Made by a program: the position numbers and the translations under genes. The notes under the pieces were generated by a model. The model was not told where the DNA came from, did no database searches, and was given only the letters and a program-made list of their open reading frames with translations. Shown here in pieces: positions 49,887-63,370 of a DNA stretch of 64,000 bases. Source of the DNA: Rarobacter incanus (lineage in GTDB: Bacteria > Actinomycetota > Actinomycetes > Actinomycetales > Cellulomonadaceae); contig NZ_VFNV01000001.1 in the NCBI RefSeq assembly GCF_006715765.1, positions 868,001 through 932,000 on the forward strand, given 5' to 3'. Position 1 is the first letter of the stretch; each line of letters begins with the position of its first letter.

Positions 49887-49950
49887 AGTCGCAGCGTTCC
49901 ACGGACTTCTGACCCCGCCGCGCCACGCGGTGCGGTGACAGAATGCTTGG

Positions 49951-50607
49951 GTGGTCAATGTTATCTGGGACATGGGCGGAACCCTGATCGACACCTATCC
50001 AGAGGTCGACAGGGCGTTGGCCGCCGCCGTGTGGGGCACGGCCCCCACCGCGCAGCAGTTGCGACATGTGCAGGCGCTGCGAACAGTATCGATCGCACAT
50101 GCCATAGATGCACTTAGCGCTGAATATGCGGTCCCGCCCCAGACCCTGCAACAGGCCTATCGAGACCTCAAGGCGCGTTGGCAAACGCATCCCGCTCCGC
50201 TCATGCCGTGCGCGCGCGATCTGCTGACGGCGGTGAGCGCAAGCGGCGGCCTGAATTTGGTCGCAACCCACCGCGATCGCGCGTCGGCCACGGCGCTATT
50301 GGATGCCCTAGGCATCCGCGTCGATGACTTGGTGTGCGCCCCGGACGGCCTGGCCCGCAAGCCTGACCCGGCGATGAACCTAATGTTGCTCTCCCGCCAC
50401 CACCTCGCACCGCGTGATGTGGTCTGCATCGGCGACCGCGCCATCGATATGCAGGCGGCCGCCGCCGCGGGGTTGCGCGGTATCCTTCTCGATCAAGACG
50501 CCGCGGCCAACGGGGCGCGAGCGCCGAAGCACGAGCGGGTGCAGACCCACCAAACTCGCGTCGACGTCGTCGCTTCATTGTGCGAGGCATTGGCGCTTCT
50601 CGATTGA
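49951..50607 (+). CDS. HAD-family hydrolase
   Basis: This HAD phosphatase of the phosphoglycolate phosphatase/beta-phosphoglucomutase type has motif I WDMGGTLIDTY with the nucleophile aspartate, motif II around LVATHRDRAS, motif III lysine in LARKPDP and motif IV VVCIGDRAIDMQAAAAAG. The substrate is not predictable. The 218 residues start at GTG. It follows the crcB terminator and is probably a single-gene transcript. Confidence 0.85.
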   Translation: MVNVIWDMGGTLIDTYPEVDRALAAAVWGTAPTAQQLRHVQALRTVSIAHAIDALSAEYAVPPQTLQQAYRDLKARWQTHPAPLMPCARDLLTAVSASGGLNLVATHRDRASATALLDALGIRVDDLVCAPDGLARKPDPAMNLMLLSRHHLAPRDVVCIGDRAIDMQAAAAAGLRGILLDQDAAANGARAPKHERVQTHQTRVDVVASLCEALALLD

Positions 50608-50611
50608 CGGT

Positions 50612-50641
50612 GCGCGGTCACGGCGCGGTCACGGCGCGGTC
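50612..50641. repeat. Short tandem repeat, 11-bp unit
   Basis: GCGCGGTCACG occurs twice in direct succession, followed by 8 bases of a third copy, just after the HAD gene. It is non-coding and may be simple slippage. Confidence 0.7.
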
Positions 50642-50727
50642 GGCGAAACGGCGGGCGGTCCCTGCAAGGGCGGGGCACTCGTGCCTCTTCGCGATTCCGT
50701 AGGCCCCCTCACTAGCAGCACCGATGC

Positions 50728-51984
50728 CTACCGATTGACACGAATGTACGTGACCGAGGCCACCGCCCTCTTTGTGGTCGCCGACCCCGCGTAGGTCACG
50801 CGAACCGCGTAGTTCCCCTTGCGCTTGAATCTTTTCAGCTTTATGGAGGCCTTCCCGGCCGACCCCAGCGTCGCTTTGTAGGTGCGGCCGCCGGCTTTCA
50901 CCGTCACGGTTCCGAGAGGGACGATGCCGCTGGCGCCGACCTTGATTTTCACCCTCGCCCGCTTCGATCTGGATAGCGTCCGCGGCGAGGTCACGGAGAC
51001 AGTGGCCGTTGCCTTGCCCACGCGCTTATCGACCGTCGGCACTACGCCGATCGCGCCGTGGCCCGCGAGCACCGGCACGACGCGGACGGAGACCAGCTTC
51101 CCCTTGTCAGCCGCCGTCAGGGTGTAGGTCGGGGCCGAGGCTCCCGCTATCGCCGCTCCCGCTCGCAGCCACTGATAACGAAATGCGGTGGGGCGCGGCG
51201 ACCACGCCCCCGTGCGCACTGAAAGGGTCGATCCGACCTGCGGCGATCCCACCAGCGTTGGCGTCATGACCGGGAATGGGGGTGTCCCCAGGGCCACGGT
51301 TGCCTGGAGGCTGTCGGCAAACGTTCCCGTCACCGCGATGCTCGCGTGGCCCGCCTGCCGGACCACGATCGTGAGCCGCGGACTGGTGCCCAACGCCAGC
51401 GCGGGCAGCGTAACGTAACGCTGCGTTCCAAAGATCTCGGCGCCATTCGACCAATAGTAGGAAAGGGAAATCTGTTGCGGATCCACCTGCGCCAGTCCGC
51501 TCAGCGAAGCTGAAACCGTCGCCCCCACGCGGCTTTCACCCGCGAGTTCCACTGTCGGCTCCGCAGGCGCCTGAGCTGGCTGGGCGCGCAACACCGTGGG
51601 TTCGTCAACCGCGCGCAGTTCCCGTCCTTCGCCGACCAACTCGGCGACCGAAATCTCACCTTCGGCATTCCCTCCTTGCAGGCCCTGGACAAAATAGACG
51701 TCCTGGTCTCGCGTTGCGATGCTCACTGCCAGACCGCCCGCCGCATCCGTGAGGGCGCTGGTAGAGAGCCTCTCGCCCGTGGTGAGGTTCACGGTCACGA
51801 CGTCGAGAGGGCTTTCTGCAGCGAAGCCCGCGAAGGTGACCTGCGACGCGTCCGCGATCGCCCCACTCGAGTGCAACGCGATTGTGGGCGCGTTGGCTGT
51901 GGCTGCGGTGGCGCCAGCCAGCGACGCCGCCAGGGCGGCGGCCGCAATCGGCGCGAACCAGCGATGATTTCCGGAAAATTGCAT
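50728..51984 (-). CDS. Secreted repeat protein with Ig-like beta domains
   Basis: The 418 residues start with a signal peptide (FAPIAAAALAASLAGATAATANA). The middle has two tandem modules of the secreted actinobacterial type VGATVSASL..YYWSNGAEI and VGSTLSVRTGAW..FRYQWLRAGAAI, the latter ending TYTLTAADKGKLVSVRV. The C-terminal module (residues about 330-418) is Lys/Arg-rich and Ig-like (VTVKAGGRTYKATLG). The start ATG 51984 has an AGAGGG site. The longer frame upstream lacks a signal and overlaps the divergent NUDIX gene. A surface or extracellular binding role is likely. The ligand is unknown. Confidence 0.7.
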   Translation of the reverse strand: MQFSGNHRWFAPIAAAALAASLAGATAATANAPTIALHSSGAIADASQVTFAGFAAESPLDVVTVNLTTGERLSTSALTDAAGGLAVSIATRDQDVYFVQGLQGGNAEGEISVAELVGEGRELRAVDEPTVLRAQPAQAPAEPTVELAGESRVGATVSASLSGLAQVDPQQISLSYYWSNGAEIFGTQRYVTLPALALGTSPRLTIVVRQAGHASIAVTGTFADSLQATVALGTPPFPVMTPTLVGSPQVGSTLSVRTGAWSPRPTAFRYQWLRAGAAIAGASAPTYTLTAADKGKLVSVRVVPVLAGHGAIGVVPTVDKRVGKATATVSVTSPRTLSRSKRARVKIKVGASGIVPLGTVTVKAGGRTYKATLGSAGKASIKLKRFKRKGNYAVRVTYAGSATTKRAVASVTYIRVNR

Positions 51985-52048
51985 GAGAAGTGCCCTCTGT
52001 TCGATCCAGCGCCCCCCGCACACCGCCATCCTGCCATTGCCGCGGCGA

Positions 52049-52054
52049 TAGTAT
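52049..52054 (+). promoter_or_regulatory. -10 box of leaderless NUDIX gene
   Basis: TAGTAT is followed by 6 bases and ATG 52061. Confidence 0.5.
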
Positions 52055-52060
52055 CGAACT

Positions 52061-52549
52061 ATGTCCGAGGGAACCATGGACCGTTTTGCCGATCCGCTCG
52101 CAGTCGATTCGGTCCCATCGCCCGCCGATGCCGGGTTGATCAAAGTGGCAGCGGTGGTGCTGCTGAGCGAGGCGGCAGCCTTGACCGTCAGAAAGCGATC
52201 CAGTTCGCTGTTCCAGCTTCCCGGCGGGAAAGCCGAGCGAGGCGAGACCTGGCTCCAGACCGCTATCCGCGAGTGCCGCGAAGAAACCGGCATCGAACTC
52301 GATCCCCGCGAACTGACGTACCTTGGGCGATTCGACGCAACAGCGGCGAACGAACCCGGGATGCGGGTCGAATCGACCGTTTACCTGAGCCGGGTCGACC
52401 GCGCGCGGCTGAGCCCGACTCCGCAGGCAGAAATTGCCGAACTCCGGTGGACTCCGCTCGGCGCAGACCCCGCGGATTTGGCTCCTTTGCTCGCGACCCG
52501 CATATTTCCCGCCCTGATTGGCACCCAATGCGGCGATGTCGAACTTTAA
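52061..52549 (+). CDS. NUDIX hydrolase
   Basis: This 162-residue hydrolase cleaves nucleoside diphosphates linked to another moiety. The NUDIX box is GGKAERGETWLQTAIREC followed by REETGIEL, with all conserved Gly and Glu positions present. It lies on the common four-helix-sandwich scaffold, and QLPGGK precedes the box. The substrate (for example oxidised nucleotides or NDP-sugars) cannot be predicted. It has a leaderless start and diverges from the secreted repeat protein. Confidence 0.88.
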   Translation: MSEGTMDRFADPLAVDSVPSPADAGLIKVAAVVLLSEAAALTVRKRSSSLFQLPGGKAERGETWLQTAIRECREETGIELDPRELTYLGRFDATAANEPGMRVESTVYLSRVDRARLSPTPQAEIAELRWTPLGADPADLAPLLATRIFPALIGTQCGDVEL

Positions 52550-52685
52550 TGCGTAAGTTACGGACGCGTCTGCGCAGGTTGTCATAAAAGAGATCAAATG
52601 AGTGGGCCCGAGGCTTGTTGTCGAAGATTACGCCTTGCTACCCTGATGACACGCGAAGTAAGACAACGAAGTCTGAGGAGCGGTC

Positions 52686-53549
52686 ATGGGAATCTTTTCT
52701 CGAACGAAGAAGTTCGATTTAGCGACCGAGATGGTCAACGGAATCGTCGCGACCATACCCCGACCCGCTTTTCCGCACGCCGTTGCGGAAAAGCGACGCT
52801 TTCCACTTGGGGTCGCGGGGTCGACAAATGCGGTGTGGGATACAACGCAGCGCCCGAATCTTTTCGCCGTCGGGGCGGGCAAACTGGGCCGCAGCACCCT
52901 GGTACGTACGCTCGCGGCCCACGGGTACGAATTCGCGGATTCATGGGAGATCCGGATCATTCACAGCGCAAAGGCGGCGGACAACGCGGCCAGGACCATC
53001 GAGTACCAATCGGAATATGCCGCGCGCGTTGAGTCCTACACCGACAACCAGGACTTTTCGCGCAAGGTGATGGCCCTGCGCCGCCTGGTTGCCGATCGCT
53101 CGGCGCACATGCACACGCCTGGCAGTTCGCCGCTGTTCCCGATCCTGGTGATCATCGACGACCTGGATCTGTTCATTCACCCCGATTTCAGCCGGGAGGG
53201 ATACGAGTCGGTGGAGGTGGCACACCAACTTTACGAGCTGATCCCGAACGCCAACGCGGTCAACATCCACTTCGCGATCCTCAACAAGGGCGCGGCATTG
53301 GACCGCATCGTTGGCTCCGATCTGGCGGCGTCCTTCATGCCGGTATCGCTCTCCAGCACGAACGAACGCGATTCGCTGATGTTGTTCAAGGACTACATTG
53401 CCGCGCGGGTTCCGAGCCGCAACTACTTCCGCGAGCGCGACAAGTCGCTTCCGCCCTTGCTGGGTCGTGGCGTGACGCTGCTCCCGTCCGGGGAACCGGC
53501 GGAAACGCAGTTCTACAAGACGATGGCCGAAGAAGAAGTCTGGGTTTAG
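52686..53549 (+). CDS. Stand-alone FtsK/EccC-like P-loop protein with a degenerate Walker A
   Basis: The 287 residues look like one FtsK/SpoIIIE-type motor domain. PLGVAGSTNAV is followed by RPNLFAVGAGKLGRSTLVRTL, aligned with the PHLLVAGxxGSGKS block of FtsK and EccC. Walker B is FPILVIIDDLDLF near residue 158, and the end reads PPLLGRGVTLLPSGE, as in FtsK. The Walker A lysine position reads GRST, so nucleotide hydrolysis is doubtful. Membrane helices and DNA-translocation gamma domain are absent. The ATG has a GAGGAG site. Possible relatives are type VII secretion ATPase fragments, but no esx genes are nearby. Confidence 0.65.
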   Translation: MGIFSRTKKFDLATEMVNGIVATIPRPAFPHAVAEKRRFPLGVAGSTNAVWDTTQRPNLFAVGAGKLGRSTLVRTLAAHGYEFADSWEIRIIHSAKAADNAARTIEYQSEYAARVESYTDNQDFSRKVMALRRLVADRSAHMHTPGSSPLFPILVIIDDLDLFIHPDFSREGYESVEVAHQLYELIPNANAVNIHFAILNKGAALDRIVGSDLAASFMPVSLSSTNERDSLMLFKDYIAARVPSRNYFRERDKSLPPLLGRGVTLLPSGEPAETQFYKTMAEEEVWV

Positions 53550-53714
53550 GCGTCCGCGGGCAGCTTCCGCCGCGGACCAGAGAGCGGGAAACGGGCGGCC
53601 GCGTCCAGGCGATCGGGGTTCTTGGCCCGCCGGCAATTCACGGAGTGTCGGCGGGCGACGCTCTGCGGCGCGAGGGCGCGAGGCCGCCGCCCCTTCGCCT
53701 CCCCACACGCAAGG

Positions 53715-54899
53715 TTACGAGGTTGCCGCGGCCGTTCGGGTGAGGTAGGTCGCCAGCGCGAGCGCCCGCTCGGCCATTGAGCGGGCGCTCGCGTGTTCCC
53801 CCGCCGCGTGTGCTCCCGCCCCGTGCGGGCCGAATCCGTCCACCGTCGCAACGCCCATCGCGCCAAGATTGTTGGCGTCGCCCGCGCCCGCGGCGGGCCG
53901 CCCGCCAAGTTCCAGGCCTGCTTCGTGAGCACTAATCGCCAGGTCCGACATCAGACGCAGATCCTGCTCGCTGGCCTTCCACGCCGGCCGATGACTGAGG
54001 ACCTCGACCTCGACGTGCGCGCCGGGGCGCACCGCGTGTAGATTCCCGACAGCATCCAGGACGGCGCGCTCGGTTTCCGCATCAACGAACCGGAAGCCAA
54101 TTTCCGCCTCGGCGTGGGCGGCGATGACGTTCGCGCGGGTTCCCCCCGCTAGGGTCCCGATGTTGCATAGCACCTCGCTAGATCCCCCACCTGCCCCTGC
54201 AGCGATCGTTCGCACGTGGGCCAGTTGGTCGATGATCTCGTCAATCGCAGATACCCCCTTGTCGGGATCGAGCGCCGCGTGCGCGGGCACGCCGGCAACG
54301 CTCAGGCGCACGCGCGTGCTACCGCGCCGCCCGACCTTCAGCGCGCCGTCGGGGTGCGGGCACTCGAACCCCACCGCGCACGCAGCATCGCGCGCGGTTT
54401 CCCGCAAAAGCCCCGCGCTCGACGGCGAACCGATCTCCTCATCGCACACCAGGATCACCCTCACCGCCCGGTGATCCATTCGCGCGATCATCGCCATCGC
54501 TTGAAACATGATGACGATGCCGGATTTCATATCGAGCACCCCCGGCCCGCTGACGCGGTCGCCCTCGACGCGCCAGGGTACCTGCTCCGCCAGCGCGCCC
54601 ACGGGCCACACCGTATCCGTGTGCCCCACCAAGAGAACCGGATTCTCCCCGCCCCGACCGCCCCAATCGGCGATGAGGTTGGTTCCCTGCTCCGACTCGA
54701 CCAGACGCACGGCGGCCCCGATGCTCCCGAACCACCGCGCCAGGACGTCGGCGATCAGCGCGCTGGCGCCGCGGTCACCCGACGGCGTTTCGATCCGCAC
54801 CAGATCCTCTAACCGATCAACCATGTCTTCGGCGCGGGGAAGGATTAGTACGCGACCGGCATCCGCGCAGTCGGCGCGCAACTGGTTATCAATAGGCAT
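53715..54899 (-). CDS. M20-family N-acyl amino acid hydrolase (CPG2-like), probable N-succinyl-amino acid desuccinylase
   Basis: This zinc hydrolase of the carboxypeptidase G2/ArgE group has 394 residues. The metal motif is VLLVGHTDTVWPVG near residue 93, then GPGVLDMKSGIVIM, LVCDEEIGSPSSAGL, the dimerisation block GVPAHAALDPDKGVSAI and AGAGDANNLGAMG near the end. The start is ATG 54899, supported by a TATGGT box 6 bases upstream. It diverges from the GNAT and racemase genes, so in context it most likely removes succinyl from N-succinyl-L-amino acids. Glutamate carboxypeptidase activity is the main alternative. Confidence 0.85.
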   Translation of the reverse strand: MPIDNQLRADCADAGRVLILPRAEDMVDRLEDLVRIETPSGDRGASALIADVLARWFGSIGAAVRLVESEQGTNLIADWGGRGGENPVLLVGHTDTVWPVGALAEQVPWRVEGDRVSGPGVLDMKSGIVIMFQAMAMIARMDHRAVRVILVCDEEIGSPSSAGLLRETARDAACAVGFECPHPDGALKVGRRGSTRVRLSVAGVPAHAALDPDKGVSAIDEIIDQLAHVRTIAAGAGGGSSEVLCNIGTLAGGTRANVIAAHAEAEIGFRFVDAETERAVLDAVGNLHAVRPGAHVEVEVLSHRPAWKASEQDLRLMSDLAISAHEAGLELGGRPAAGAGDANNLGAMGVATVDGFGPHGAGAHAAGEHASARSMAERALALATYLTRTAAATS

Positions 54900-54905
54900 A
54901 TCCGT

Positions 54906-54911
54906 ACCATA
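54906..54911 (-). promoter_or_regulatory. -10 box of leaderless M20 gene
   Basis: Minus-strand TATGGT is 6 bases before ATG 54899. It lies in the same 98-base divergent region as the GNAT promoter. Confidence 0.5.
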
Positions 54912-54985
54912 ACGCATGCACGCTTGGGAGCGGAACCCGCATCACTCGCGCCACAGCCCGTCACAAACCCGAAACATATGTAACG

Positions 54986-54991
54986 TATCCT
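54986..54991 (+). promoter_or_regulatory. -10 box of leaderless GNAT gene
   Basis: TATCCT is followed by 6 bases and ATG 54998. Divergent placement with the M20 box suggests shared control of the cluster. Confidence 0.5.
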
Positions 54992-54997
54992 GACTGC

Positions 54998-55822
54998 ATG
55001 ACAGCAGCCGCGACCAGCGACCTACCGGCCCCGCAGGGCACCAGCGCCGATTCCGCCTCCATCGAGTGGAGCGGCGACCTCAACACATTCGAGTCGTTCC
55101 GCGAGGCCGGCGACCTGTACCGCCGAGTATTCGGATACTACGACCCCGACCTATCCATAAACGCTAATCTGATGTCCGCCCTGGTGATGAACGGCGGCAG
55201 CGTGGTCGGCGCCCGCGACGCGGAAGGAACCCTGGTCGGATTCGCGTACGGCTTCCCCGCTATCGAAGACGGGCGGGTCTATCACTACTCCCAGGCCGCC
55301 GTCGTCGATCGCGCGTGCCAAGGCAAGGGCGTGGGCCGCACACTTAAGAACCGCCAGCGCGAATCCGCGCTGGCGCATGGGCAGACGGCCATGCGGTGGG
55401 CGTTCGATCCGCTCCTGGCCCGCAATGCGCACTTCAATCTGGACGTGCTCGGGGCTAGCGCTATCCGGTTCGTGCACGACTTCTACGCGCGCACGTCCTC
55501 TGATCGGCTCCTGATCGAATGGGACCTCACCGCCGCAGAAGCCGACCGCTCTGCCGGCCTTGCAGCGTCGCAGCCGCCGCCCGACATGAGCCAGGTTCCG
55601 TGGTGCGAACCGCTCGTTGACAACGCCGGTAGCACCTGGATTCGCATGCCGTCCAGCATCGGGATCGCCGAGAAAACGCGCGACGTGGCGGACCTGCGCG
55701 CGGTCCTTCGCCGCACCCTCGACGGGGTGTACGCGCAAGGGCAAAGCATCGTTTCCTGCCGCCGCCTGGACGCTTCCTCCTCGCTGTTCCTCGCGGCTCC
55801 CGGGGCAGCCTCGCTAGCCTAA
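54998..55822 (+). CDS. GNAT-family acyltransferase of COG3375 type, candidate amino acid N-succinyltransferase
   Basis: This 274-residue GNAT-fold acyltransferase has the acyl-CoA loop block VVDRACQGKGVGRTLKNRQ near residue 105, followed by AMRWAFDPLLARNAHFNLDVLGA. The second block is characteristic of COG3375. Members next to N-succinylamino acid racemase genes were shown in Geobacillus to be succinyl-CoA:D-amino acid N-succinyltransferases. That role is inferred here from family and neighbours. It starts the operon GNAT-SIS-racemase, diverges from the M20 gene and ends 4 bases before the SIS gene. Confidence 0.8.
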   Translation: MTAAATSDLPAPQGTSADSASIEWSGDLNTFESFREAGDLYRRVFGYYDPDLSINANLMSALVMNGGSVVGARDAEGTLVGFAYGFPAIEDGRVYHYSQAAVVDRACQGKGVGRTLKNRQRESALAHGQTAMRWAFDPLLARNAHFNLDVLGASAIRFVHDFYARTSSDRLLIEWDLTAAEADRSAGLAASQPPPDMSQVPWCEPLVDNAGSTWIRMPSSIGIAEKTRDVADLRAVLRRTLDGVYAQGQSIVSCRRLDASSSLFLAAPGAASLA

Positions 55823-55826
55823 GACC

Positions 55827-56516
55827 ATGTCGATCGACCGCAGCATTGCCCCGTCTCACGCACTGTCATCGCCCGCCGACAGGTTCGGGGCTAGGCTCCG
55901 CACCAACGTTTCCGCGGAGAATTTGCAGGCGGATGTTATGGCGGCCGAGGCGAACTCGCTTGCGCACACGTTCGCACAGCTGGCCGCATCCGCAAGCGTG
56001 CCCGCGGCATCGCAGATCCTGCTCGGCGCCCGCCGCCGGTACTTTTCCGGGGCCGGGAAATCATCCGCCTACGCGAACCTGCTCACCCACGATCTCTCGT
56101 CGACGCTGGCCAACGTGTTCCTCGTCGATGGGCACGCGCTAAGTTCCCTCACCGTGCTCTCGGACGTGCGTGCAACCGACGCGTTGGTGCTGTTTTCCGT
56201 GCGGCGTTACCGGGAGGAGACTGTCAAGTTCGGTACGGAGTTCGCTCGCGCGGGTGGCAGCGTTGTGCTCGTGACGGATTCAGCGGACTCGCCCCTGGCT
56301 GGTATCGCCGCTGTGGTCATCACCGTCGACACGGGATCGGTGTCCTACGCCGATTCACCGACCGCGATCGCGGCCGTCTGCCACCTACTGAGCACCTTGA
56401 CCGCGGCCAGCGCCAAGGGCGCGCGCCGACGCCTGGCCGCCCGTGAAGAAATCGCAATCCGGCTTGGTCTCTACCATCACGACGAGTCCGCCTCCCCCGA
56501 CCCCCAGGAGCCATGA
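55827..56516 (+). CDS. SIS-domain protein (RpiR/MurR effector-like domain without HTH)
   Basis: The 229 residues hold one sugar isomerase (SIS) domain: RRYFSGAGKSSAYANLLTHDL near residue 70, VLFSVRRYREETVKFGTEFA near residue 130 and SVVLVTDSADSPL. RpiR/MurR transcription factors pair such a domain with an N-terminal helix-turn-helix, but here the first 50 residues have no such motif. It might be a ligand-binding or isomerase protein, or a regulator that lost its DNA-binding part. The stop overlaps the racemase ATG in ATGA, so it is tightly coupled to the pathway. Confidence 0.75.
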   Translation: MSIDRSIAPSHALSSPADRFGARLRTNVSAENLQADVMAAEANSLAHTFAQLAASASVPAASQILLGARRRYFSGAGKSSAYANLLTHDLSSTLANVFLVDGHALSSLTVLSDVRATDALVLFSVRRYREETVKFGTEFARAGGSVVLVTDSADSPLAGIAAVVITVDTGSVSYADSPTAIAAVCHLLSTLTAASAKGARRRLAAREEIAIRLGLYHHDESASPDPQEP

Positions 56517-57640
56517 AGGTGCACATATCCACAATTCGCCTGCACCAGGTGACGCTGCCGCTGGTGCATTCGTTCCAGACCAGTTCACATCGCAAGTCCT
56601 CGCTAACCCACATACTGGTGGAGGCGTCCGACAAGGACGGAAATACCGGCTGGGGCGAGATCGCCTCGCCAACCGACCCGTTTTTTTGCGGCGAAACGAC
56701 GCACGGCGCGTGGGACATCAGCGTGCGGCACTTAGTTCCGCGGATGCTCGGCGCGCAATGGGAACACCCCAGTGAAATCGATGCGGCATTCGCGAAGATC
56801 CGCGGCAACGAGTTCGCCAAGGCGGGGTTCATCGCGGCGGCCTGGGCGTTGTGGGCGACAGCCAGTGAGATTCCGCTGGCGGCGGCGCTCGGGGCGACCC
56901 GCAGCGAGGTGGCGGCCGGGGTTTCTTTGGGCATCGAACCAACAATCGATGCGCTATTGGCGCAGGTGGACCGCCACCTTTCCGACGGCTACAGGCGGGT
57001 CAAGCTCAAGATCGCCCCGGGCTGGGACATCGCGCCCGTGCGCGCCGTGCGCGCGGCCTACCCGGACGCCGACCTGCACGTTGACGCCAACGGTGCGTAT
57101 CCGTCTACTCCCGAGGCGGCGGCCCTGCTGGCGCAGTTGGACGAATTTGGGCTCACCATGATCGAGCAGCCCTTTTCGCCCCGCGACTTCCTGGCCCATG
57201 CGGCATTGCAGTCGCGTATCGCGACCCCGATCTGCCTGGACGAATCGGTCGTCGACGTGGCGGACCTGGCGACCATGATCCACCTGGATGCGGGGCGCGT
57301 CCTCAACATCAAGGTTTCGCGTATGGGCGGCCTGACGCAGGCACTCGCGGCGCACGACGCCGCGCAGCGGGCGGGCATCCCGGTGTGGTGCGGCGGAATG
57401 CACGAATTCGGCGTGGGCCGCGCGGCCAACGTCGCCCTCAGCGCGTTGCCCGGATTCACGCTGCCGTCCGACGTGTCGGGCAGCGACAAGTACTTCGCGC
57501 GGGACGTCATCACCGCGCCCGTGGTGGCGGTATCCGGCATGGTCACAGTGCCGCAGGCCGCGGGCCTGGGCTTCGAAGTGGACCGAGAATGGATAGCGGC
57601 CAACCGCAACGCCTTCTTCGACACCGCGACCGCTAGATAG
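56513..57640 (+). CDS. N-succinylamino acid racemase/o-succinylbenzoate synthase family enzyme
   Basis: This 375-residue enolase-superfamily member belongs to the muconate-lactonising subgroup. The general acid/base lysines lie in VKLKI (164 and 166) and KVSR (267). Metal ligands are D191 (DANGAY), E218 (IEQPF) and D243 (DES). SHRKSSLTHILVE is near the N-terminus and GGMHEFGVGRAANVALSAL near the C-terminus. These motifs are shared by o-succinylbenzoate synthase (MenC) and N-succinylamino acid racemase. No other menaquinone genes are nearby, while a GNAT and an M20 hydrolase are, so the racemase role is favoured. Confidence 0.85.
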   Translation: MKVHISTIRLHQVTLPLVHSFQTSSHRKSSLTHILVEASDKDGNTGWGEIASPTDPFFCGETTHGAWDISVRHLVPRMLGAQWEHPSEIDAAFAKIRGNEFAKAGFIAAAWALWATASEIPLAAALGATRSEVAAGVSLGIEPTIDALLAQVDRHLSDGYRRVKLKIAPGWDIAPVRAVRAAYPDADLHVDANGAYPSTPEAAALLAQLDEFGLTMIEQPFSPRDFLAHAALQSRIATPICLDESVVDVADLATMIHLDAGRVLNIKVSRMGGLTQALAAHDAAQRAGIPVWCGGMHEFGVGRAANVALSALPGFTLPSDVSGSDKYFARDVITAPVVAVSGMVTVPQAAGLGFEVDREWIAANRNAFFDTATAR

Positions 57641-57724
57641 CAGGGCAGCGCGCGCCGGGCCCCCACCAACCAAACTAGTATCCCAACGATTTTCACAAAC
57701 AGTCGGAACCGAATCGAGCATCAC

Positions 57725-58600
57725 ATGTCACAGCAAGCATTGGTCCTAGTCACGACGCCGGTCGCGGGGATCGAATCCGCATCCGCGTTCAAGGTTGTAG
57801 ACCCTGCGACTTTCCACATCAGCGCCATGGACCTTGCCGTCACTCGCGGCGACGGCATCTTCGACGTATTCGGCGTGCGCGATGGCGCCCCGGTGAACAT
57901 GGACGCCCACCTCGCGCGCTTCGCGCGGTCGGCCGCGATGTTGGATCTGCCCGCACCCTTGGAATCCGCCTGGCGGCCGGCCATCGAGGCGGCCATCGAG
58001 GCGTTCGGCCCGGGTTACGGTGCCGTCAAGCTCGTGATGTCGCGCGGGATTGAGGGCTGTGGAGTGCCCACCGGCTTCATCTATGTTTGGTCAGTTGAGG
58101 ACGAGGCCGCCCTGGATCTTTCCGGAGGCATTTCGGTGGTGACGCTCGACCGCGGCTACCGTCACGATGTGGCGCTGACCTCTCCGTGGCTGTTACAGGG
58201 CGCGAAGACGTTGTCGTATGCGGTGAACAAGTCTGCCCTGCGGGAGGCCGCCCGGCGCGGCTTCGACGATGTCCTGTTCGTTAGCTCGGACGGGTACCTG
58301 CTGGAGGGGCCGACCTCGTCCCTAATCTTGCGCATCGACGGTGAGCTGTTCACCCCCAAACACGACCTGGGAATTTTGCCCGGTACCACTCAGATCGCAA
58401 GTTTCCAGGTCGCGAACTCGCTCGGTCTGACGGCGCGCGAGGAGTTGCTTGCGGTCGATGCATTGGATCGGGCGGATGCGGCGTGGCTCACCTCGTCGAT
58501 TCGCGGCGCCGTACCGCTGCGCAAGGTGGACGACCGCGAGTACGAGATCGACTCGGACCTGACCGCCCGGCTGAACGCCACAGTCATCCGCCCCAGCTGA
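57725..58600 (+). CDS. Class IV PLP aminotransferase/lyase
   Basis: This 291-residue member of fold-type IV PLP enzymes (branched-chain or D-amino acid aminotransferase, or aminodeoxychorismate lyase) has VTRGDGIFDVFGV near residue 40, the lysine block GAKTLSYAVNKSALREA near residue 160 and the phosphate-binding LLEGPTSSLIL near 198. Sequence alone does not settle the substrate. Its place after the racemase gene suggests D-amino acid or amino acid turnover. A TAGTAT box at 57676 and an 84-base gap suggest its own promoter. Confidence 0.8.
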   Translation: MSQQALVLVTTPVAGIESASAFKVVDPATFHISAMDLAVTRGDGIFDVFGVRDGAPVNMDAHLARFARSAAMLDLPAPLESAWRPAIEAAIEAFGPGYGAVKLVMSRGIEGCGVPTGFIYVWSVEDEAALDLSGGISVVTLDRGYRHDVALTSPWLLQGAKTLSYAVNKSALREAARRGFDDVLFVSSDGYLLEGPTSSLILRIDGELFTPKHDLGILPGTTQIASFQVANSLGLTAREELLAVDALDRADAAWLTSSIRGAVPLRKVDDREYEIDSDLTARLNATVIRPS

Positions 58601-58603
58601 TGC

Positions 58604-59053
58604 TCAGTTGGGCACGTCGAGGCGGAAATGGTGCGAGATGATCGCCATTCGGTTCGTCAGGTAGAAGCGGTGCGCAGCGAATCGCTGCACACCCGAATCC
58701 AGGTCGAGCGCCGCCGCCCCCGCATAATGCGCCCGCCGGCGCATTTCGGCAAGCATCTTCGCCCCGAAGCCGGCGGAGCGGCGGGTTGAGTCGACCACCA
58801 GATCATCGACGTACAGGACCAGCCGCGCGTCCGTTTTCGCCATGAGCCGCCAGCCCGCCACCGCCGCGCACCGGTCCTCGACCATGAGCGCGGTGAAGGT
58901 GGGTCGCTGCCCGATCTGGCTTTCGAGCACGGCCCTCACATCAGTCATGGTGATGCCGATGCGAAGCTGACCAAGCACCGGCAGCACGGCTTCCCACAAT
59001 GGATCATCGCCGTCGATCACGTCGACGAACCGGCTTGTGTTGTTAGCGGGCAT
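58604..59053 (-). CDS. GNAT-family N-acetyltransferase
   Basis: This 149-residue GNAT acetyltransferase has LYVDDLVVDSTRRSAGFGAKML near residue 80, the acetyl-CoA loop (consensus RxxGxG/A). The C-terminal block ALDLDSGVQRFAAHRFY matches acetyltransferases that act on small amines, and the acceptor is unknown. It is convergent with the class IV aminotransferase (3 bases between stops) and not obviously part of that operon. Confidence 0.8.
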   Translation of the reverse strand: MPANNTSRFVDVIDGDDPLWEAVLPVLGQLRIGITMTDVRAVLESQIGQRPTFTALMVEDRCAAVAGWRLMAKTDARLVLYVDDLVVDSTRRSAGFGAKMLAEMRRRAHYAGAAALDLDSGVQRFAAHRFYLTNRMAIISHHFRLDVPN

Positions 59054-59431
59054 CGGTTCCCCTTCGGTGGCGCCAGCGCCGGTGGCTGCGGCTTATTCGC
59101 GAGCGCGATTCCCGCTCGCCCCCGCTCGTATATAAGACAAGTATGCCCGCTAATTCGCGGGCGCCTCCCTGCGCACCGCCGCGCGGTGCCTGTCTTCGAG
59201 GCGCGCCAGGCCGGCGGGGAAGGTCGTGGCGCTTCGCGCGCGGCATGGCCTTCCCCCACATTCCCGGCCCCCATCGAAGCGATGCGCGCCCCCGATGACA
59301 CGTCGGGGCTGCCACGACGGCTCCTGCACCCGGAAAATAAAGGTAGGTACCTGTTGACTTTGCGTAGGAACCTGCACATACCAGGAGGGTCGTAGGTGAG
59401 AAGGATCCTACGCAACTAGAGAGGCGGTCAC
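59054..59431. other. Gene-free region upstream of marR
   Basis: There are 378 bases without a convincing gene. The first half is GC-rich spacer behind the divergent GNAT gene. The last 100 bases carry repeats and a promoter-like TTGACT at 59354 that should control marR and the ABC genes. Confidence 0.6.
59343..59415. promoter_or_regulatory. Candidate MarR operator region
   Basis: GTAGGTACCTG (59343) and GTAGGAACCTG (59364) are near-copies exactly 21 bases apart (two helix turns), and each contains an AGGNACCT palindrome. They flank a TTGACT -35-like box. TTGCGTAGGA (59360-59369) is also the inverted complement of TCCTACGCAA (59406-59415). The pattern suits autorepression by the MarR protein encoded next. 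Confidence 0.5.
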
Positions 59432-60124
59432 ATGACCGAACACGACAAAACGCCGCTGCAGGCACATTCTCCTGCCAGCGCCAACACCGAAGTGCCGTCA
59501 CCGCTGAACATCCTGGGTCGCTTGATGTACCTAACGATTCTGATGCGCGTGACCGATGGGCGCTTCCGCCACGGGCACGGCCGTTCGGCTGGGGTGCTGA
59601 AGGGCCAAGGACGAGCGCTCCGCATCCTGCAATTGCAGTCACCCATATCGCAAAAGGAACTCGCGTACCTGCTCGGGATCAGGTCCCAGTCACTCAGCGA
59701 ACTGATTACGAAGCTTGAGGACGGCGGGCTTGTGAAGCGGTCCCCCGACCCCGGCGACGGGCGGACGTGGCTTGTCGAGATCACCGAGCTGGGCCGCGAG
59801 GCCGCGGGCGCGCAGCCCAATACGCTCGAGGAGGACCCGACCTTTGGCCTCAGCGACGACGAGGCGGCGCAACTGACCGCGCTGCTCGACAAGGTCATCG
59901 AAAACGTCGAGGAGTCGGCGCCCATAGGGGCGGACCGCCGCATCCAAAAGATGCGACAAATGTGGTTCGAGGCGGGCGCCAGCGGCGACCGGCGGGCGGG
60001 CGGGTTCGGCCCCGGGTTCGGTCCCGATTACGGCGAGGCGTTCATGGGCGCGCACCCCGGCCGCCCGCGCGGACGCGGCCGCCAGGGGCGCTCCCGCAAG
60101 GCAGCTGAAGGGTATTGGTTCTGA
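59432..60124 (+). CDS. MarR-family transcriptional regulator
   Basis: This winged-helix regulator has 230 residues. The recognition region is [25 protein letters not shown], and the wing is [20 protein letters not shown]. Members bind palindromes and respond to small phenolic or toxic ligands. A Gly/Arg-rich C-terminal tail of about 50 residues ([15 protein letters not shown] onwards) is an unusual extension. The ATG follows an AGAGGCGG site. The stop overlaps the ABC ATPase start by 1 base, so it is the local regulator of a drug-type exporter. Confidence 0.88.
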
Positions 60125-60763
60125 TGGGGGCGGAGTTGGCCGTCGAGGCGGCCGGGTTAGTGAAGGTGTTCGGAGACAATCGTGCGGTTGACGGCGTGGA
60201 TCTGCGGGTTGGCGCCGGAACCGTCTACGGGGTACTCGGGCCGAACGGGGCGGGTAAGACGACGACCATCTCGATGCTCGCCACCCTGCTGCGACCGGAC
60301 GGCGGGAGCGCGCGGCCAAATGTGGGACACGATCCGAGAGTTGGTGCGCACCGGCTCAACGGTCCTACTGACCACCCAGTACCTGGACGAGGCGGACCAG
60401 TTGGCCGATCGGATTGCCGTGATCGATCGCGGGCGCGTGGTCGCCGAAGGCACCCCCGACGATCTGAAGGCGAGCGTCGGCTCCGCCGCCCTCATTTTGA
60501 CGGTCGCGGATGGAACTCGTTCGCATGAGGCCCAGCAACTGATCGGCAAAACCCTCGGCACCCGCGCCACATTGACCCCGGAGGCGGGGCGCCTGACCGC
60601 GCCGCTGACCGACCCCAACGCCGTCACCGACCTGCTTGTCGCGCTGCGCGGGGCCAGCATTTCGCTGCTAGACATCAGCGTCCAAAAACCCACACTCGAT
60701 GAGGTATTCCTGGCGCTGACAGGCCACGACGCCGCCGCATCGGCAACGACTCAAGGAGCCTGA
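60124..60763 (+). pseudogene. ABC exporter ATPase with internal deletion and frameshift
   Basis: The first 65 residues are a normal DrrA-type ATPase start with Walker [11 protein letters not shown] and end at LRPDGGSAR. Just there, near 60310, the reading continues only in another frame with [31 protein letters not shown], the post-Walker B half with its switch histidine region replaced by LTTQYLDE. The Q-loop, signature LSGG and Walker B segments, about 100 residues, are missing. The family is about 310-330 residues and about 210 remain. The gene cannot make a working ATPase, although the MarR and permease genes beside it are intact. Confidence 0.85.
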
Positions 60764-60765
60764 CA

Positions 60766-61581
60766 ATGACAACATCGACCATCATCCCCCCGGCACAGCG
60801 CGCTCTGCGCCACCGCCCGTCGCTGGCACAGAGCGTGCGCAACTCCTTGACCATGGCGGGCCGCGGGCTGATCAAGATCCGCCGCACACCGGAGCAGCTC
60901 TTCGATGTGGTCTTCCAGCCCATCGTCTTCACGATCATGTTCGCGTACATATTCGGGGGCGCAATTGCCGGAAACGTGGCAAATTACCTGCCGTATCTGA
61001 TCCCCGGCATCCTGGTGCAAACCGTCATTACGACGTCCGTGGTGACCGGAACACAGCTGCGCGAGGACATGGACAAGGGCGTTTTCGACCGGTTCCGATC
61101 CCTGCCAATCGCTAGAATCTCGCCCCTTGCGGGAGCCTTGCTGGCGGACACGGTGCGTTACGGAATCGCGACGGTATTGACGTTTGCCGTCGGATACGCA
61201 ATCGGATACCGCCCCGCGGGAGGAATCGGCATGGTGGCGATAGCTGCGCTGCTGGTGATCTTTTCGGCGTGGGCGGTGAGCTGGATCTTCGCGTTCTTCG
61301 GTGTCATTGCGCGCACGGCGTCAAGCGTCCAGGGGATATCGATGCTGATCCTGTTCCCGCTGACGTTCCTGTCCAACGCCTACGTCCAACTCGACACGCT
61401 GCCGACGGGCCTGAAGTGGTTTGCCACCATCAACCCCGTATCCCACCTGGTCACGGCGGTGCGGGAAATCGCGAACGACGGGATTATTACCAACGAGGTC
61501 ACCGCAACCGTCGTCGGCGCCCTTCTTATCGTTGCCGTCTTCGCGCCGCTGACCGTGCGGGCGTACATGCGCAAGGCGTAG
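60766..61581 (+). CDS. ABC-2 type exporter permease (DrrB type)
   Basis: This 271-residue permease of the daunorubicin-resistance family has six helices. The first, VFQPIVFTIMFAYIFGGAI, is followed by REDMDKGVFDRFRSLPIARISPLAGALLAD, the conserved coupling stretch. FLSNAYVQLDTLP and WFATINPVSHLVTAVREI are near the C-terminus. It starts 3 bases after the broken ATPase gene. Unless another ATPase substitutes, it has no energy source encoded here. Confidence 0.9.
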   Translation: MTTSTIIPPAQRALRHRPSLAQSVRNSLTMAGRGLIKIRRTPEQLFDVVFQPIVFTIMFAYIFGGAIAGNVANYLPYLIPGILVQTVITTSVVTGTQLREDMDKGVFDRFRSLPIARISPLAGALLADTVRYGIATVLTFAVGYAIGYRPAGGIGMVAIAALLVIFSAWAVSWIFAFFGVIARTASSVQGISMLILFPLTFLSNAYVQLDTLPTGLKWFATINPVSHLVTAVREIANDGIITNEVTATVVGALLIVAVFAPLTVRAYMRKA

Positions 61582-62273
61582 GCGGTGGCGCCGCCCTTTA
61601 CCGCCGAGCAAGTCGCGCACAAGGCGAGTACCGATATCACCCCGCCGCCGAGTGCACCTACTAACGCTTTCGCACGAGGAACAGGAACTCCTCGTTGTTA
61701 GAAGGGCTCGCTGATGCTGCCTAGTGCGACAACCAGCCGAAACACTTCCTGAACTGCACGGATTTCGATTCCGCGGTGCCGTGGGATGCGGCGAAATGGC
61801 CCCATGTGTATCAATTGTCGTGGGGCTTGCGTTGGGTCGGGCGCCGCACCGGCGGTGATGCTGGCGTGCCCGGGGCAACCGAGGGCACCGGAACCTAAGT
61901 GGCACGGCTGGCAGGCACCATCCTCGCGGAATCGATACACCTGCCCGGAAAACTCCGGCCACATTCAAAGGTTTCGCGACCTACCAGCGAACGTGCGAGA
62001 ACAGGAAACTTGCGCTGACTTGGACCGACAAGAAGAATACGAAGTCGAAGGCTGCCGACGTCCACGTGACCATCGACTATTCAGGATGTGTCATCGCGTT
62101 GCTTTCTTCCACGCCAGTATCAACATTGGCAAGCGGAACATAGCAAATTTCAGCAGAGAGCAAGGCGTGATTTCTACAGTGCTCGACTTTTGACATGTGA
62201 CCGGAAGTGATGCTGATCGTCAAGCGCTGATGATGACGCCCGCTGGCACGACGTCTTGGCATGGAGGCCTGGA
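61582..62273. other. Decayed or non-coding stretch
   Basis: There are 692 bases without a complete gene. A hairpin (CGAGGA / TCCTCG at 61675-61694, inside CTAAC / GTTAG) may terminate the permease transcript. Base composition becomes more even than in the neighbours, and only the short coding-like piece at 61979-62143 stands out. Confidence 0.5.
61979..62143 (+). pseudogene. Possible remnant of a secreted or cell-wall protein gene
   Basis: An open frame without a start reads TYQRTCENRKLALTWTD, then a Lys/Thr-rich stretch and VHVTIDYSGCVIA, up to a TAG at 62141. Its third positions are G/C-rich, as in real genes here, until near the end. No family is recognised. It may be the tail of a lost gene. 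Confidence 0.25.
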
Positions 62274-63152
62274 ATGAAAGCCGATGTGTTGGATGGTCCA
62301 GTTGGGCAGTTGGCGGTGGCGGAACTCGTCCTGGGTGAACGGGCGATGGCGCTCGACTATGCACTCAGCGCGCTGGCGGACCCGGAGGCGTTTCGCCGCA
62401 GGCTGGCGGATACCGCACATTCCAGGTTCGAGGAACTCCGCGATCTCGTGCTCGGCGATCCGTTGCGGGTCGTAGGGGTCTTTGGCAAATTTGTTGAATC
62501 CGTCCACCACGGCTACGCGCCGCAGGGCCACGACCGATTCGGGGTGCTCGCCTCCTGCACGGGTATACTTCGACCAGTCGCACGGTTACTCTCGGAAGCG
62601 CCCGAACTGTCATGGTGGTGGTCCCCGGTCGGCAGTGTGCAACGTGTGACAGAGTCGGGTGAGGGCCGTCGCGTCGATGTCGCCCAACTCAACGACGAGG
62701 CTGCGATGAACTGGTGGACCGCGCCGATGACCTCGCGAACACTGCAAACGACCAGGGGTCCGATCTTGGGTGCACCGAGCGTGAGCGCAGTGATGGCGGA
62801 GGACCTGGCAACTGCCAGGCCGGACACCTGGGAGTATGCCCCGCCGCTCGGCGATGTCGTCGAACTCTCACATCCGAGGGATTGGGCAGGCCTGGTCGCC
62901 CAATTCCCGATGCGTGTCGCGCCCGCCGTCGCCGACTGGTCGCAGATAACGGGCCGACCGGGCCCCTGGTACCAACCGGACTGGGCGCGAGTGGCGGAGT
63001 GCTATTCGGGCGCCCACCTGAGCGTTGCCGCGTACCTTGCCACCGCGTACCGTGCCATCGAGTTCAGGGACGGGTGGACCGTCCTCTCCGGATGGAACCC
63101 CGACGCCACCGTGTGGTTCGACACCGACTGGCCGCCTAAGTCGACTACGTAA
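62274..63152 (+). CDS. Conserved actinobacterial-type protein, function unknown
   Basis: This 292-residue soluble protein has no signal or helix-bundle segments. Features are many Trp residues (WWWSPVGS near 120, MNWWTAPM near 148) and a C-terminal stretch CYSGAHLSVAAYLATAYRA then LSGWNPDATVWFDTD that resembles uncharacterised actinobacterial proteins I cannot place in a named family. The ATG follows a GGAGGCC ribosome site. It stands next to a decayed stretch and the broken ABC locus, so it may be part of an accessory island. Confidence 0.6.
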   Translation: MKADVLDGPVGQLAVAELVLGERAMALDYALSALADPEAFRRRLADTAHSRFEELRDLVLGDPLRVVGVFGKFVESVHHGYAPQGHDRFGVLASCTGILRPVARLLSEAPELSWWWSPVGSVQRVTESGEGRRVDVAQLNDEAAMNWWTAPMTSRTLQTTRGPILGAPSVSAVMAEDLATARPDTWEYAPPLGDVVELSHPRDWAGLVAQFPMRVAPAVADWSQITGRPGPWYQPDWARVAECYSGAHLSVAAYLATAYRAIEFRDGWTVLSGWNPDATVWFDTDWPPKSTT

Positions 63153-63370
63153 ATCCCGATGCTCGTGCCGTGGTCCCGATCCTTCGGCGCGCGCGGTGGC
63201 GCTCAATGCTCACCTGCCATCGCGCTTTCCCGACACGCGCGAGATATCCGCGACGATTGCCGCAACCGTGTCGGGTTCCATCGCGCCCGCTTCTCAGCGT
63301 CCAATAGCTTCCAGTAGCTACCCCCTCCAACGGGCTCGTACTGGGCTAGGATCGTTGAAATATCAAAGGC

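Follow-up and report, generated by a model that had tools for sequence, protein, structure and literature searches.

EccC (EssC) motors of type VII systems have three tandem FtsK/SpoIIIE domains (D1 to D3), carried on one membrane-anchored chain or split between EccCa and EccCb. In the split, ESX-1-type arrangement, separate genes encode the membrane-anchored half and the accessory domains, two of which make up EccCb, whose gene is located in the esx cluster. D2 and D3 are reported to have degenerate Walker motifs and are proposed to be regulatory (PMC11154593). A crystallographic study of EccC ATPase3 gives the Walker A motif as GXXXXG[K/R][T/S] and the Walker B motif as hhhhDD, reports very low activity, and treats the GR[ST] sites of ATPase3 as nucleotide binding (PMC6954902). 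Among the open-licence papers listed for this topic, as judged by titles and abstract openings, none dealt with a free-standing single EccC domain.

The gene described here, which probably encodes such a domain, lies in the genome of Rarobacter incanus (G000; 2,486,262 bases in one contig), within a stretch of 64,000 nucleotides that was analyzed as a whole and is called the window below. An earlier note on this DNA described the product as an orphan FtsK/EccC-like domain with a broken Walker A motif, perhaps a nucleotide-independent partner of a real motor. It proposed a profile search, a structure prediction, and a comparison of the P-loop in orthologs, in which a normal P-loop would have reduced the case to a simple mutation. 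The features of the gene are as follows.

52660..52685, + strand: conserved stretch 5′ of the ATG, AAGACAACGnnGTCTGAGGAGCGnTC, holding a likely ribosome-binding site (from comparison with Rarobacter faecitabidus).
52686..53549, + strand: 287-aa protein, a probable free-standing EccC D2/D3-type RecA-like domain (from the open reading frame, translation, codon GC, ortholog, and profiles).
52872..52898, + strand: Walker A variant G63-AGKL-G68-R69-S70-T71 (GXXXXGRS), with Arg in the Lys position (from the sequence, the ortholog, and the published motif).
53145..53162, + strand: Walker B motif LVII-D158-D159 (hhhhDD, without the catalytic Glu), as in EccC ATPase3 (from the sequence, alignment, and the published motif).
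53268..53306, + strand: H195, candidate sensor-1 residue N200, and candidate Arg finger R207 (from alignment; putative roles).
53463..53510, + strand: G260-R261-G motif through Q275, common to the ends of EccC D2 and D3 (from alignment).

The coordinates and translation of the reading frame agree with the sequence, as the earlier note had them, and its codon-position GC (0.61/0.44/0.78) resembles that of other genes in the window. The sole ortholog found is in R. faecitabidus DSM 4813 (G001), with 174/279 identities (62%) and gaps = 0; both proteins are full length, with open reading frames. Nei-Gojobori-type counts over 281 codons gave a pN of 0.256 and a pS of 0.659, corresponding to a dN of 0.31, a dS of 1.58, and a dN/dS of ∼0.2, a value that is only rough because pS and dS are near saturation. 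Thus, we conclude from codon GC and the ortholog that 52686-53549 is a genuine gene and from dN/dS that it is under purifying selection. The 26 bases before the ATG are nearly identical between the two species; a promoter and terminator scan for the gene found none. The protein has no transmembrane segment (maximum 19-residue Kyte-Doolittle mean, 1.44), as had been noted, and so does not carry the N-terminal transmembrane anchor expected of an EccC/EssC motor.

At E values up to 10, Pfam reported no family for the window protein, FtsK_SpoIIIE (PF01580) included, and among 18,950 NCBIfam models, the sole reported match was EccCb (TIGR03925; E = 3.6e-5; residues 28-210 against profile positions 330-509), although HMMER filters discard most weak matches. 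The TIGR03925 score, 22.3 bits, is far under the curated cutoff of 346.55. Matches in a sequence search of the PDB with the window protein alone were at chance level (best E = 0.12). The set for profile-profile comparison comprised 30 EccC-like loci (L039-L068, out of at least 30) from 59 genomes, of which 14 (L039-L052, here canonical) score above the EccCb cutoff and 16 (L053-L068) below it. With hhalign, the profile of the two Rarobacter sequences scored 52.3 against D2 of the 16 lower-scoring proteins (193 columns) and 41.9 against D3 of the 14 canonical ones (194 columns), versus ≤20 in 40 shuffles each; these two scores are above random. The score against canonical D2 was 34.4, over 22 columns only, around the P-loop. 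D1 (21.2 for the 14 and 20.4 for the 16) and D3 of the 16 (18.5) are indistinguishable from noise, because these scores are level with the shuffle maxima; over six comparisons, the maximum of 40 column shuffles ranged from 18.1 to 23.5, and reversed sequences reached at most 19.1. Against 24 FtsK motors, the score was 25.9, barely over the maximum of 23.0 in 30 shuffles. By these profiles, the window protein appears to group with the EccC accessory ATPase domains (D2/D3), above D1 or FtsK, at 16 to 22% identity in the alignment. The FtsK/EccC assignment and the orphan single-domain form proposed in the earlier note thus stand, with EccC D2/D3 matching better than FtsK; the broken Walker A motif as a hallmark does not.

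Indeed, the motifs follow those of the accessory domains. The Walker A motif, GAGKLGRST (residues 63 to 71), corresponds to GAARLGRST in R. faecitabidus, and LVIIDD (residues 154 to 159) corresponds to LVICDD; H195, N200, and R207 are all kept in the ortholog. The window protein fits both motifs in the form given in the ATPase3 study, from G63 to S70 and from L154 to D159. Among the matches listed, all 30 EccC-like proteins gave a motif match for each of the three domains, with Arg at the Walker A Lys position in 0/30 D1, 8/30 D2, and 15/30 D3 domains and a canonical form in every D1; the P-loop was sought as [GA]....G[KR][ST] in D2 and D3 and in the GK form in D1, so that the count is blind to any other residue and D1 has Lys by construction. 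In this same listed set, D2 has Arg in 6/14 proteins above the EccCb cutoff and 2/16 below it, and D3 has Arg in 0/14 above and 15/16 below; G....GR[ST] occurs in 23 of the 60 accessory domains. Because the published ATPase3 motif allows Arg and because Arg is common in EccC D2 and D3, the Walker A motif is not unusually broken: Arg69 sits in a complete GXXXXG[K/R][T/S] motif, and the Arg-bearing P-loop appears to be an ordinary variant of the EccC helper domains. Nucleotide independence, as proposed in the earlier note, is only a possibility; GR[ST] sites rank among the ATPase3 nucleotide-binding sites in that study (PMC6954902). The other motor signatures that had been pointed out, the Walker B-like LVIIDD and the GRGVTLLPSGE end, are both present. 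A simple mutation is not indicated, as the ortholog likewise has GRST and no normal P-loop. A third ATPase3 motif given in the same source, Dx[R/K], is absent from residues 88 to 104; it is also absent from most D2 domains of the same alignment.

Structure prediction with AlphaFold2 was uninterpretable with only the two family members (pLDDT, 34.6). Once 26 EccC domains were added to the alignment (all 16 D2 domains from the lower-scoring proteins, plus 10 canonical D3 domains out of 14, with the other four omitted), pLDDT rose to 74.2 and pTM was 0.80. The top five Foldseek matches of this model were Thermomonospora curvata EccC (best E = 9.6e-10), a fold search that is partly circular because EccC domains were used in the model's alignment. 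Likewise, when the 28-row alignment was used to query the PDB, 21 sequences came back with EccC on top, a result that proves nothing alone because EccC domains sit in that alignment. VIA-align Z scores were 18.1 for TcpA, 17.2 for FtsK, and 17.1 for EccCb1 (root mean square deviation, 3.3 to 3.4 over 220 to 225 residues), and the structure cannot separate the three because these scores lie within 1 of each other. The model is thus compatible with an EccC fold rather than independent proof of it, and it leaves the motor types unseparated.

In the model, the protein would match ATPase2 and ATPase3 of EccC (T. curvata EccC, 4n1a/4nh0; Mycobacterium tuberculosis EccCb1, 6j19/6jd4) along its full domain length in having an FtsK/SpoIIIE-type RecA fold. 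By its motifs, it has in common with D2 and D3 GXXXXG[K/R][T/S], hhhhDD, a closing GR-G, and the lack of a catalytic Glu. Unlike D2 and D3, each of which is one of several domains in a membrane-anchored chain, it is a single free soluble domain with an N-terminal extension of ∼15 to 20 residues; further differences are that no Dx[R/K] is seen and that WXG100 genes are not adjacent. With three tandem domains, or their split EccCa/EccCb form, as the standard for a motor, the 287-aa protein has only one. It resembles split EccCb in that an accessory domain is separate from the anchored half, and EccCb is its only NCBIfam match; unlike EccCb, it has one domain instead of two and lies in no esx cluster. 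TcpA and FtsK DNA-translocating motors have the same predicted fold, with structural Z scores close to that of EccC, whereas the 287-aa protein has neither GK[ST] nor a DE in Walker B.

A search with the protein at E values up to 0.01 matched 5 of 149 related genomes, namely R. incanus itself, R. faecitabidus, and three weak partial matches. At E values up to 0.001, the two-sequence profile matched 2 of the 221 genomes sampled from the family (the same two Rarobacter species), 4 of the 396 from the order (R. incanus and three weak partial matches; R. faecitabidus was not among the matches and was possibly not drawn), and 1 of the 394 from the class (R. incanus); these genome sets overlap. Six weak matches were excluded from the ortholog count (three with E values of 3.4e-3 to 8.2e-3 and three with 3.1e-4 to 8.1e-4). 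All six are partial; two are in frames with stop codons, and the other four fall within much longer open frames (1168 to 2200 codons). Two other Rarobacter genomes, G002 (100% complete) and G003 (81% complete), gave no match, and only the absence from G002 is informative. A first scan of genome contigs yielded 54 stretches and no confirmed locus; a second yielded 165 stretches and one locus, the R. faecitabidus ortholog. Searches of 72,556 plasmids and 50,697 phages with tblastn (E = 0.1) found no match, nor did a degenerate-pattern scan of IMG/VR viral contigs, and PHROGs had none for either ortholog at E values up to 10. The free-standing EccC-accessory-type domain, as identified from sequence, is so far found in two Rarobacter genomes only.

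From its first gene to ∼45 kb, the window is collinear, in inverted orientation, with R. faecitabidus (601 to 546 kb), and two more anchors extend this collinearity to 49.8 kb; window positions ∼40 to 49 kb match G002 as well. Amid this otherwise collinear region, gene content before a YchF-like gene varies strongly among the three Rarobacter genomes, and the 287-aa gene lies in the variable part.

Window ∼49,900-63,300; G001:C1 ∼521,700-543,500; G002:C3 ∼216,700-231,100: variable stretch before the YchF-like gene.

Read from CrcB to YchF (flanking genes that we take to be such from their sequences), the 287-aa gene is followed by genes for a MarR protein and an ABC-2 permease in the window but preceded by them in R. 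faecitabidus; therefore, a local rearrangement has occurred. By Pfam, the window neighbors are a HAD hydrolase, a NUDIX protein, an M20 peptidase, a GNAT protein, a SIS protein, an enolase-superfamily enzyme, an aminotransferase, and, on the opposite strand, an Ig-like-domain protein; the upstream neighbor of the R. faecitabidus ortholog is an alpha/beta hydrolase. Among the 10 neighboring proteins scanned with Pfam, there was no WXG100 substrate or other type VII component, in keeping with the earlier remark that no secretion genes are adjacent, and no known defense family was reported.

A candidate partner exists elsewhere in the genome, more than 1 Mb from the 287-aa gene, where a gene for a WXG100 protein (PF06013; E = 2.4e-14) is found together with other genes and with an EccC-like frame of at most 1765 codons.

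G000:C1:2,332,960-2,341,934 (L023:4961-13935): WXG100 and EccC-like cluster, with counterparts L078 and L079.

The WXG100 gene likewise adjoins the EccC-like gene in R. faecitabidus and in G002. Because of this cluster, a partnership of the 287-aa protein with a real EccC is possible. G002 has the cluster although the 287-aa gene was not found there, so such a cluster does not generally depend on this gene. Searching the three Rarobacter EccC-like proteins with phmmer gave very weak matches (4.3 bits or less), so descent from the genome's own EccC is not supported; a second weak match within the genome (E = 0.02) has 40% identity over 53 residues.

We favor, at a probability of roughly 0.6, a reading in which the protein is a soluble accessory (D2/D3) RecA-like domain, derived from EccC or co-descended with it, that is catalytically weak or dead and acts in trans. 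It would descend from, or have common ancestry with, the D2/D3 domains of EccC-type type VII motors; it may still fold around, and perhaps bind, nucleotide, with weak or no hydrolysis; and it would act in trans as the regulator or adaptor that D2 and D3 are proposed to be in cis within EccC. The likeliest target, and the least certain step, would be the genome's own WXG100/EccC-like system. A more specific version is doubtful: here, the protein would be a genus-limited soluble pseudo-ATPase, in effect a detachable D2/D3 domain, and would work in trans by gating a minimal WXG100/EccC-like secretion motor or feeding substrates to it.

Two other origins have to be weighed against the EccC accessory domain. 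The protein could be the surviving motor domain of an FtsK or TcpA-like coupling protein of a conjugative or integrative element, repurposed or decaying, an origin consistent with the equally good structural matches to TcpA and FtsK and with the variable gene content around the locus. However, the FtsK motor profile scored 25.9, compared with 52.3 for EccC D2, and the plasmid, phage, and IMG/VR searches gave no match, making this origin unlikely. That the gene is a decaying, functionless remnant of an old EccC gene is the least probable reading: close partner genes are missing, and the 62% identity to the ortholog falls short of the 76% median across 39 genes in the collinear block, but 14 of these 39 are conserved even less, and the remnant would have to have kept two full-length open copies, a dN/dS of ∼0.2, its motifs, and the sequence leading up to the ATG.

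A third alternative concerns function rather than origin, with the protein as a nucleotide-sensing or scaffold component of a nonsecretion pathway, e.g., phage defense. Such a role would suit a gene with no secretion gene among its 10 scanned neighbors, and in PADLOC, mad8 weakly matches both orthologs (E = 2e-4 and 5e-4), while the window protein also has matches to three PtuA models (E = 0.015 to 0.05). Yet mad8 matches 394/394 actinobacterial and 14/14 control genomes at E values up to 1e-5, and an FtsK-type P-loop was present in 24/24 checked mad8-matching loci from FtsK-size frames. Because the model matches all these genomes and loci in this way, the mad8 match is unspecific and reports FtsK likeness, and a Mad8 or defense identity was set aside. 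With no known defense family reported by Pfam among the 10 scanned neighbors either, a nonsecretion role is improbable, only slightly less so than a remnant.

The EccC accessory-domain reading makes the finding only mildly unusual, since helper domains ordinarily include this variant of the ATP-binding motif that had been called "broken"; what little novelty there is lies in the stand-alone single-domain form. Should one accessory domain indeed function outside the EccC chain, it would offer a small soluble handle on the weakly active D2/D3 function. As the evidence stands, the main lesson is that an EccC-type accessory domain can normally have Arg in its Walker A motif, which does not flag a broken motor.

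Some further observations were made on the way. The leader AAGACAACGnnGTCTGAGGAGCG, just 5′ of the ATG (window 52660-52685, and at the same place in the ortholog's locus), contains a short AGAC...GTCT inverted repeat. The WXG100/EccC-like cluster of the three Rarobacter genomes consists of the WXG100 gene, a gene of ∼591 to 602 codons, other small genes, and the EccC-like gene; the ∼591- to 602-codon gene has only weak alpha/beta-hydrolase-type Pfam matches in the R. incanus and R. faecitabidus copies scanned. A match to the mad8 model (PDLC04140) alone says little, as every actinobacterial genome searched has one; the six best matches (L080-L085) lie in frames of 1792 to 1965 codons with a GVQGGGKS P-loop and may be specific relatives.
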